15,150 nucleotides of DNA from an uncultured bacterium. Lineage in GTDB: Bacteria; CALINM01. The notes beneath the pieces were generated by a model. The model saw only the letters and a program-made list of their open reading frames with translations. It was not told the origin of the DNA and did not search any database. The position numbers were made by a program, and so were the translations under genes. Where the stretch lies: NCBI GenBank assembly GCA_938045315.1, contig CALINM010000138.1, forward strand, positions 1 through 15,150, written 5' to 3'. The first letter of the stretch is position 1. The number at the start of each line of letters is the position of its first letter. Shown one piece after another: positions 3,567-15,150 of the stretch.

Positions 3567-4412
3567 TTACTTTTTTAAACAACCTCTTATAATTCTATCA
3601 TATCCATTCAAATCCTGTTTTACTAAAACTTCAAAACCTTTCTTCTTTCCATATTTTTTTATATATTCACCTTGAGCATTACCAATTTCCAAAAGAATAT
3701 ACCCCTCATCTTTAAGATACAACTTTGATTCTCTTATTATTCTTTTTAACGCCCATAACCCCTTTTCTTTTGACATTAAAGCCTCTTTTGGTTCTTTTCT
3801 TACTTCAGGCTCTGCAGCTAAATAATCGGATTTATTAAGATATGGTGGATTTGATATTATAAGATCAAACTTGGTATCCTTAAGGGGTTCGAAAAAAGCA
3901 CCCTTGAAAATTTTTACTTGTCCTTCCACATTGTGTAATTTTGCATTTTTTAATGTCAAATCTAAAGCTTTTTCACTTATATCGCAGCAATAAACAAAGC
4001 TTTTAGGAAAGAGCTTTGCAAGTGTTATACTTATTATACCCGTACCGCACCAAATTTCATAAATTTTTAAACTATCGTCTGTACCAAAAAGCATTTTTGC
4101 TTCATCAATCAAAAGTTCTGTTTCTGGCCTTGGGCAAAAAACACCTTTTTTAACTATAAATTTTTCACCATAGAACTCTTTTTCTCCAATAATGTAAGCA
4201 ACAGGTAATCTTTTTGATCTTTCTTTCAAATTTTGCAAATATTTTTGTTTCTCCCTTTCATTTAAAATATACTCAGGATGGGCATATAAATATGTTTTAT
4301 CTCTACCTATTGCAGACATTAAAAGAAGCTCAGTATCTAACTGGTATGTAAAAATATTTTTTTTCTTTAAATAGTTCTTACCATATATAAGTGCATCACG
4401 AATAGTCGTCAT
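3567..4412 (-). CDS. prmC: Peptide chain release factor N5-glutamine methyltransferase PrmC
   Basis: This SAM-dependent enzyme methylates the GGQ glutamine of release factors, whose gene lies directly upstream. At 281 residues it is family-typical. Residues 1-75 are the helical N-terminal domain that recognises the release factor. The signature NPPY is at 188-191 (ISNPPYL), and the SAM loop is at 119-125. CPRPETELL (93-101) is also characteristic. The ATG overlaps the prfA stop as ATGA, so the two are probably translationally coupled. One oddity is that motif I reads EIWCGTG, with Trp121 where the first glycine of the usual D/E-x-G-x-G-x-G normally sits; the other two glycines are kept. The Trp codon is TGG, one base from GGG. 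This is the last gene of the rho operon. Identity is secure; full activity is not proven. Confidence 0.93.
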
Positions 4413-13143: not shown

Positions 13144-13485
13144 TTAAAATATACTTCTTAATCTGCCATTCTTTTTATTTATTAAAATTACATCAACTAA
13201 ATTGCCCTGTTTATCCAGCACTTCTATTATAAAAAATCTCCTTCTTTCCCTTATCTCACCTATATTAATTTCCCTATCAGAATAAAAGGATTTAAGGATA
13301 TTTACAGCATCTTCTTTGCTGTTTACTGAAAATGGCTTACCATATCTTCCCCTTTGCTTATCAAATTTAAAATCACCATAGGGAGATTTTAAAAGATTGT
13401 TAATATCCCCTTCTTCCTTTGTTTGCGCATAAAGAAGAGATTGAAGAAAAAGTGAAATTATAAGTATTCTAATTAAAGTTTTCAT
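13144..13485 (-). CDS. Small exported PepSY-like protein
   Basis: From the ATG at 13485 the product has 113 residues. Residues 1-20 are a signal peptide (MKTLIRILIISLFLQSLLYA, cleavage likely after the final Ala). A short PYGDFKFDKQRGRYGKPF linker leads into a single PepSY-like fold: helix SKEDAVNILKSFYSD, then strands containing INIGEIRE, RRRFFIIEVLDKQG and VDVILINKKNGRL. Such domains occur in periplasmic proteins, some inhibitory toward proteases, but no specific role can be assigned. The frame extends to a TTG at 13500, giving five extra residues; the ATG fits the signal peptide better, although its ribosome-binding site is weak. A strong terminator separates it from the Spy-like gene, yet both look exported and may belong to one stress response. 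Confidence 0.75.
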   Translation of the reverse strand: MKTLIRILIISLFLQSLLYAQTKEEGDINNLLKSPYGDFKFDKQRGRYGKPFSVNSKEDAVNILKSFYSDREINIGEIRERRRFFIIEVLDKQGNLVDVILINKKNGRLRSIF

Positions 13486-13491
13486 TTTTTT

Positions 13492-13497
13492 ATTATA
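13492..13497 (-). promoter_or_regulatory. Possible -10 box for the PepSY-like gene
   Basis: A perfect TATAAT lies 6 bases before the ATG at 13485, just after the U-tract of the upstream terminator. The hexamer 17 bases further up is only TTATTA, so the -35 is poor. If real, the message would be leaderless. Its AT-rich setting makes a chance match possible. Confidence 0.25.
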
Positions 13498-13505
13498 CAA
13501 CCTAA

Positions 13506-13540
13506 TAAAAAAAATAATAAGGGCGAAAAAATCGCCCTTA
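13506..13540 (-). terminator. Intrinsic terminator of the Spy/CpxP-like gene
   Basis: A 9-base perfect stem TAAGGGCGA / TCGCCCTTA (13518-13526 with 13532-13540) encloses a 5-base loop. On the minus strand it is followed by a U-rich run containing eight consecutive T. It begins 7 bases after the stop codon at 13548. This is the only convincing rho-independent terminator in the window. Confidence 0.9.
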
Positions 13541-13547
13541 AAAAAAT

Positions 13548-14150
13548 TTATCTCAAACTCCTCGCCCTGTGTGATTCCCTTATCTTTTCTAATTCTCTAT
13601 ATATTTCATCAATTTCTTTTTTTAAGTTATCAACCTTAACGTTATCAGGATGTTCAGATAAAAGCTCTTTCTCTAATAAAAATTTTTTTTCATTCAATTT
13701 CGATCTTAATTCAAAAGTTTCTTTTCTCATATCCCTTAACGCGGGTGTAAATCTCTTTATTTTTTTATCGAAATCTACTGGACCACCCCATGTATAACTG
13801 TCCTTTCTCATAAAACCTAAACCACCAAGCTCCTGCCTGTATTTTTCACGGATCTTTTGAAGCTCACTCCACAAATTTCCTACCTCTTTTTCTAATTGGC
13901 TAACTTTTTGTTTGTCGGGAGAATCAGATAACAACTCCCTTTCTAACTCAAATCTCTTTTTATTGATCTTTTCCCTTAATTCAATAGTTTCTTTTCTAAA
14001 ATTCCTATAATTTTCATAATTTCTACAATACGGTCCACCATATGACAACTCATCACACCCAAAAAATCCCCTCCCCCTACCTCTCGCTTCAGCAAAATTT
14101 ACTGATAATAAGAATAAACTCAAAAATAACAGTGTCCACATTTTTTTCAT
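13548..14150 (-). CDS. Periplasmic Spy/CpxP/ZraP-like protein with duplicated helical repeat
   Basis: The 200-residue product starts at an ATG with GGAGG 8 bases upstream. Residues 1-22 are a signal peptide ending ...NFAEA. A Gly/Arg-rich stretch (RGRGRGFF) and two cysteines (C32, C42) follow. The rest is two charged helical hairpins, residues 51-108 and 141-198, which align without gaps at an offset of 90 residues with 31 of 58 identities. Each has RKETxELR, FxLExELLS, PDxxKV and ELxKIRE. This resembles periplasmic heavy-metal-resistance/CpxP/ZraP proteins, which act as chaperones or feedback sensors for an adjacent two-component system. A classic LTxxQ motif is not evident. It follows a histidine-kinase gene, has a possible response-regulator operator ahead, and is closed by an intrinsic terminator. 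Family assignment is moderate; the export signal and duplication are seen directly. Confidence 0.78.
   Translation of the reverse strand: MKKMWTLLFLSLFLLSVNFAEARGRGRGFFGCDELSYGGPYCRNYENYRNFRKETIELREKINKKRFELERELLSDSPDKQKVSQLEKEVGNLWSELQKIREKYRQELGGLGFMRKDSYTWGGPVDFDKKIKRFTPALRDMRKETFELRSKLNEKKFLLEKELLSEHPDNVKVDNLKKEIDEIYRELEKIRESHRARSLR
13557..14000 (-). repeat. Two-copy internal repeat encoding the helical hairpins
   Basis: The segments at 14000-13827 and 13730-13557 encode the two copies, 270 bases apart. Protein identity is about half, without gaps, while the DNA copies have diverged. This implies an old duplication held in frame by selection. Confidence 0.8.
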
Positions 14151-14240: not shown

Positions 14241-15150
14241 CTAAAGGGGAATTTTGATATTGAATTTTGTCCCTTGATTTATTTTGCTCTGCACAGAAAT
14301 TTCACCACCCAATATATCTACAATTTCTTTTACTATTGTTAATCCAACTCCCAATCCATCGGTATTACTATAAAAGGGATCGAATATGTATGGTATATCT
14401 TCTTCTTTTATTCCCTTTCCTGTATCCTCAACCTCTAAAATCAGCTTTTCCCCCACTTTAAAAACTGTTACTTTAATATACCCCTTATCAGTAGCTTTTA
14501 TAGCATTCGAAATTAGATTAAACAATATTTGCTTTATGAGATCTTCATCATTAATAATTACCAAATCCCCTGGCACATCAAAAATTAATTCAACAACCTT
14601 TCCTTCCAATAATCTATTCTGTATCACCCTCTTAATGTCTTCTATTAAATAGTTAAAATTTACTTCACTTTTATTTATCTTTTTTACTTTTTTCTGGATT
14701 TTATATAGATCTTCAAGGCTAAAAACCATTCCCTTCAGTTTTTCAATCTCTTCTAATAAAGAAACAAGCCTATCTTTTGACAAACTAATAACTCCATCAA
14801 TAGCACCTTCTATTTCGCCTTGAATTATTGTGAGTGGTGTCCTCAACTCATTAGCAAATTTAGCAATACTCACTTTCCTGATTTCTTCCATTTCTTCGAG
14901 TTTATAAGCCATGGTATTAAATGATTCTATCAGCTCTCCCAGCTCATCATTGGTATTAAAATGAATTCTAATATTTTTTTTCCCTTCCCCAATCATTGAA
15001 GTCCCAGAATGCAATAAATTCAAGGGATTTAAAATTGATCGAATAAGCAAAAAATTGAATAATAAAGCCCCTAAAATAGATATGATAATGGAAATCATAA
15101 AAAATTGATTTGTTCTTTTAACAAACAAAAAGGTTTTTTCTTCATCTAAT
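14241..15150 (-). CDS. Two-component sensor histidine kinase, C-terminal part, with Asn at the H-box (5' end beyond window)
   Basis: The frame stays open through the right edge, so the start and probably a periplasmic sensor domain lie outside; 302 codons are visible. Numbering is from the TTG at 15128. A membrane segment (about 11-32) is followed by HAMP (about 30-82), the dimerisation helices (about 84-150) and an ATPase domain (about 190-295). The ATPase motifs are intact: N-box NLISNAIKAT (204-213), G1 DTGKGI (235-240), F-box DPFY (250-253) and G2 GLGVGL (258-263). The H-box reads FANELRTPLT, so residue 93 is Asn (AAT, 14852-14850) where the phosphoacceptor His normally precedes ELRTPL. 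Overall it resembles BaeS/CpxA-type kinases. The response regulator would be expected upstream, outside the window. A Spy/CpxP-like gene follows. Confidence 0.92.
   Translation of the reverse strand, partial: LDEEKTFLFVKRTNQFFMISIIISILGALLFNFLLIRSILNPLNLLHSGTSMIGEGKKNIRIHFNTNDELGELIESFNTMAYKLEEMEEIRKVSIAKFANELRTPLTIIQGEIEGAIDGVISLSKDRLVSLLEEIEKLKGMVFSLEDLYKIQKKVKKINKSEVNFNYLIEDIKRVIQNRLLEGKVVELIFDVPGDLVIINDEDLIKQILFNLISNAIKATDKGYIKVTVFKVGEKLILEVEDTGKGIKEEDIPYIFDPFYSNTDGLGVGLTIVKEIVDILGGEISVQSKINQGTKFNIKIPL

Follow-up and report, generated by a model that had tools for sequence, protein, structure and literature searches.

A sensor histidine kinase fragment with asparagine at the phosphoacceptor position in a draft bacterial genome bin

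The stretch of 15,150 nucleotides analysed here (the window) ends in a sensor kinase gene in which asparagine stands at the position of the phosphoacceptor histidine: the H-box reads KFANELRTPLT where HisKA kinases carry His. The substitution is a real feature of the assembly and is ordinary in kind. Comparison with relatives indicates that it is private to this genome and that the protein does not represent a conserved pseudokinase. Our best reading, which we consider about evenly balanced between right and wrong, is that of a BaeS/AdeS-type sensor in which a recent change from CAT to AAT, confined to this lineage, left a kinase-dead protein with residual phosphatase activity through the Thr at H+4. 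Three things we infer from the sequence: a genuine Asn codon in the organism, the loss of kinase activity and the retention of some phosphatase activity.

The whole window is one contig (C138) of a draft bin of 1.86 Mb (244 contigs, 92% complete). The kinase gene is therefore truncated at position 15150, with its sensor domain outside the window, and what can be read is a frame of 302 amino acids with an open 5' end (...RKVSIAKFANELRTPLTIIQGEIEGAIDGV...). Table 1 lists the features. The architecture of HAMP, DHp and HATPase_c is present: HAMP and HATPase_c (E 4.8e-28) score above the Pfam gathering thresholds, and HisKA reaches 25.0 bits, which is under its gathering score of 26.9, compared to 33.9 bits for the His-bearing kinase of a congener (G001). 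The G1, F and G2 boxes read DTGKGI, FDPFY and GLGVGL, and both the Glu at +1 and the Thr at H+4 (Thr104) are found. The initial annotation had described the motif FANELRTPLT with its AAT codon and had regarded HAMP and the ATP-binding motifs as intact; the assembly, the Pfam match to HAMP and the N, G1, F and G2 motifs bear this out. It had also left room for another conserved His serving as acceptor. We rejected this candidate: the DHp domain contains no His at all, and the only ones in the fragment (residues 47 and 63) both lie before the DHp helix.

Table 1. Features of the window kinase and of the two genes that follow it, in coordinates of the window.
Feature	Position	Strand	Evidence
C-terminal two thirds of a HAMP-HisKA-HATPase sensor kinase	14241..15149	-	ORF, Pfam and 63% orthologue G001:C75:20623-21519
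HAMP domain, residues 34-81	14907..15050	-	Pfam, E 2.7e-11
Phosphoacceptor codon: AAT (Asn100 of the fragment), against CAT (His) in the congener	14850..14852	-	Codon comparison
H-box N-E-L-R-T; acidic +1 and Thr +4 retained	14838..14852	-	Sequence
ATP-site motifs, all intact	N-box 14490-14525, G1 14409-14426, F-box 14370-14384, G2 14340-14357	-	Sequence
Spy/ZraP-like protein, secreted (Pfam Metal_resist); adjacent gene also in G001, with a G002 counterpart	13548..14150	-	
Small exported protein, third gene kept in G001 and G002	13144..13500	-	PepSY-like by eye only

The best family matches are to BaeS and AdeS (NF012163 and NF012226, E 2e-49 and 1.5e-43) and extend over HAMP, DHp and CA, at 168.8 and 149.3 bits against an NCBIfam equivalog cut-off of 500. 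Using phmmer, the kinase is aligned with AdeS, VicK and HK853-type chains. The best match in the PDB is the AdeS chain 7cch_A, and in the alignment the AdeS row reads AHELRTP against ANELRTP in the query. As in BaeS/AdeS systems, an OmpR-type response regulator is encoded upstream; the window kinase differs in having Asn for His, and the window does not include its sensor domain.

Orthologues were compared in the only congener covered and in one genome of a sister genus (G002). The syntenic orthologue in the congener (63% identity) has CAT, thus His, at this position, and the orthologue in G002 has His as well. The Asn is therefore not conserved, and a conserved-Asn or DivL-like pseudokinase family was rejected on this ground. 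The initial annotation had named His in close orthologues as a refuting observation, and both relatives show it.

The N-terminal part of the kinase and the OmpR-type regulator are encoded on C240, a different contig of this bin. The resulting gene order is that of the congener, with TrmA, response regulator, kinase, Spy/ZraP-like protein and small exported protein in succession; G002, which belongs to another genus of the same family, retains the regulator, the kinase and two small exported genes. This set probably constitutes an envelope- or metal-stress system. The Spy/ZraP-like protein and the small exported protein (13144-14150, minus strand) are conserved throughout the family as the genes that follow the kinase. 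The former carries a repeated unit of the type ETxxLRxKxxxKxxxLExELLS; for the latter no family match was found.

The two halves of the kinase gene do not meet. Joining C138 to C240 by overlap was rejected because their ends share no sequence, and, judged by the congener, the gap between the two amounts to about seven codons. The kinase frame on C240 extends to approximately residue 137 (YPLFSGGEE) and then continues, in frame, as a membrane protein with a Gate domain as far as the contig end (kinase-to-Gate stretch L098 6337-6616, G000:C240). This Gate-domain sequence is absent from both G001 and G002, and the search for its origin yielded only distant homologues, none above about 40% identity. 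Where the join reads YPLFSGGEEG, distant Gate proteins carry YxxFxxGxxEG. A join on a short stretch that resembles both genes is as expected of a chimera, which we consider likely here; possibly it is a true rearrangement. The kinase is single-copy, with no second, His-bearing copy in the bin.

The initial annotation had argued that the substitution is not part of a general decay, and the rate tests back this claim. Relative to the congener, pN/pS is 0.12 for DHp, 0.27 for CA and 0.38 for HAMP, where only the order is informative as synonymous sites are near saturation; DHp is the most conserved part of the kinase. When private residues are polarised with G002, 17 fall on this branch against 29 on that of the congener (Tajima chi-square 3.1), and evolution of the kinase on this branch is not accelerated. 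The change H100N is the sole private change within a catalytic motif. Decay by relaxed selection is thus unsupported by either pN/pS or the relative-rate counts, both of which span the whole divergence and are blind to a very recent change. The constraint on the ATP site is not relaxed, as would be expected of a long-dead kinase; this fits a recent change and equally an error.

The latter is the main rival to our reading: the consensus would be wrong, or a minority strain allele would have been assembled, and the kinase of the organism would have His. We regard this as a serious possibility, though on balance a somewhat improbable one. The change concerns a single base and is of the G:C to T:A type, and the site lies 300 bp from a contig end in a fragmented draft of 244 contigs. 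Some 20 bp away from that end, the sequence of C240, which carries the remainder of the gene, switches in frame to an unrelated protein. An unusual residue is also present elsewhere on the window contig, in the single-copy PrmC, which has Trp at a position of the SAM motif that is otherwise Gly or Cys only (29 of 29 relatives at position 121). Nonetheless, all gene frames in the window are open, without any frameshift, and private radical changes show no clear excess (13 on this branch against 8 on that of the congener over 2862 columns, binomial p 0.38). The other radical changes in PrmC need several bases and consequently look like evolution. A systematic signature of base errors, for which PrmC G121W had been the lead, was not confirmed by the branch counts. 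The PrmC-like methyltransferase itself (3567-4412, minus strand) is the sole match in the bin; Trp121 is encoded by TGG and SAM motif I reads EIWCGTG.

The transition into Gate-domain sequence after about residue 137 also bears on the idea of a pseudogene in the making, with a disrupted sensor domain and an Asn that reflects drift. This we consider quite improbable: the downstream frame is open over all 302 codons, the DHp domain is under strong constraint with no sign of acceleration, and the look-alike stretch at the join suits a chimera. Even more doubtful, to the point of being very improbable, is a heterodimer in which another kinase supplies the phosphoacceptor. Pseudokinases that depend on a partner are known (RocA with CovS, PMC7028121; ChrS with HrrS, PMC9491836), but the regulator gene has no adjoining second kinase, and even the nearest paralogue in this genome shares only about 36% identity. 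Among the interpretations offered by the initial annotation, the heterodimer is therefore left unsupported by the gene neighbourhood, whereas a bias towards phosphatase activity remains a possible one given Thr at H+4 and the intact ATP site.

Under our preferred reading of a recent, lineage-only substitution, a single base change would have replaced the phosphoacceptor by Asn. The protein would still dimerise, bind ATP and dock its OmpR-type regulator, but autophosphorylation would be lost. It might then act, by means of the Thr kept at H+4, as a signal-tuned phosphatase of the regulator, probably at a reduced rate, with its activity tuned by signal and nucleotide; the regulator itself would have to be phosphorylated from elsewhere, by another donor. 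Kinase activity of HisKA proteins requires the acidic residue that follows the His, and phosphatase activity requires Thr or Asn at +4 (PMC3510030); Thr104 occupies the latter position. If the base is real, a kinase-dead and phosphatase-competent protein is the most likely state, since the protein retains Glu at +1, Thr at +4 and every ATP-site motif. Changing the His of CrdS abolished autophosphorylation and lowered phosphatase activity without abolishing it, and the same has been reported for EnvZ (PMC3510030; see also PMC7005713). A further step would be fixation of the substitution in this species under selection. In one natural step, a bifunctional sensor of stress would have become a dedicated phosphatase tuned by its signal, seen here before any further decay; this we think unlikely.

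The closest parallels are laboratory mutants. In CrdS H371A and the EnvZ His243 mutants the acceptor is lost while the acid at +1, Thr or Asn at +4 and the ATP site stay, as in the window kinase; the present case differs in being natural (if real) and in having Asn rather than Ala. NtrB H139N is reportedly another such mutant of a HisKA kinase. Among natural cases, DivL of Caulobacter is similar in that the phosphoacceptor of a HisKA protein is replaced, by Tyr. DivL binds ATP poorly, has neither kinase nor phosphatase activity and fulfils a settled role (PMC4211667), whereas the window kinase keeps all ATP motifs and its replacement is limited to a single genome. Kinase-like proteins that act without autophosphorylation of their own are also known in RocA and ChrS(CA-fs). 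In RocA the His is kept but dispensable and the CA domain is degenerate (PMC7028121), and in the ChrS(CA-fs) variant the CA domain is broken (PMC9491836); the window transmitter is otherwise intact, and only this genome carries the replacement. A published case of a natural His-to-Asn HisKA kinase was not found in the literature searched, which is weak evidence as most subscription papers were outside its scope. If the base is real, the protein would be a natural counterpart of the classic laboratory mutants, a sensor kinase lacking only its phosphoacceptor, and would allow one to ask whether phosphatase control alone can run a stress regulator. If it is an error, it calls for caution in inferring pseudokinases from draft metagenome bins.

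To place the substitution in a wider context, kinase H-boxes were collected in a profile survey of fetched loci, covering three genomes of the phylum (two rows aligned outside the H-box were set aside). His is present in 70 of the 72 distinct H-boxes of this non-random sample, and both exceptions occur in this genome: the window kinase and an unrelated protein on contig C78. Elsewhere His is found in 95 of 97 cases, the exceptions being one Asp and one Gln. Loss of the His is thus uncommon: the sample, though not random, puts it at no more than a few per cent. The C78 gene (L180 1292-2191, G000:C78, plus strand) encodes a soluble kinase-like protein of 299 amino acids whose H-box contains Asn (SNFISNIKNELNNPITSI) and whose G1 box is degenerate (DFGFQM). 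Neither G001 nor G002 has a close orthologue, and the gene is located directly before genes that by eye resemble CheD, CheY, STAS and CheA. The Gln was observed in the H-box of a HisKA-like protein from a Candidatus Zipacnadia bin (L132; ARLAQDIRTPLAS) and the Asp in that of a kinase-like protein of 739 amino acids (L195, G026:C60; GDICDGLNNPVMN).
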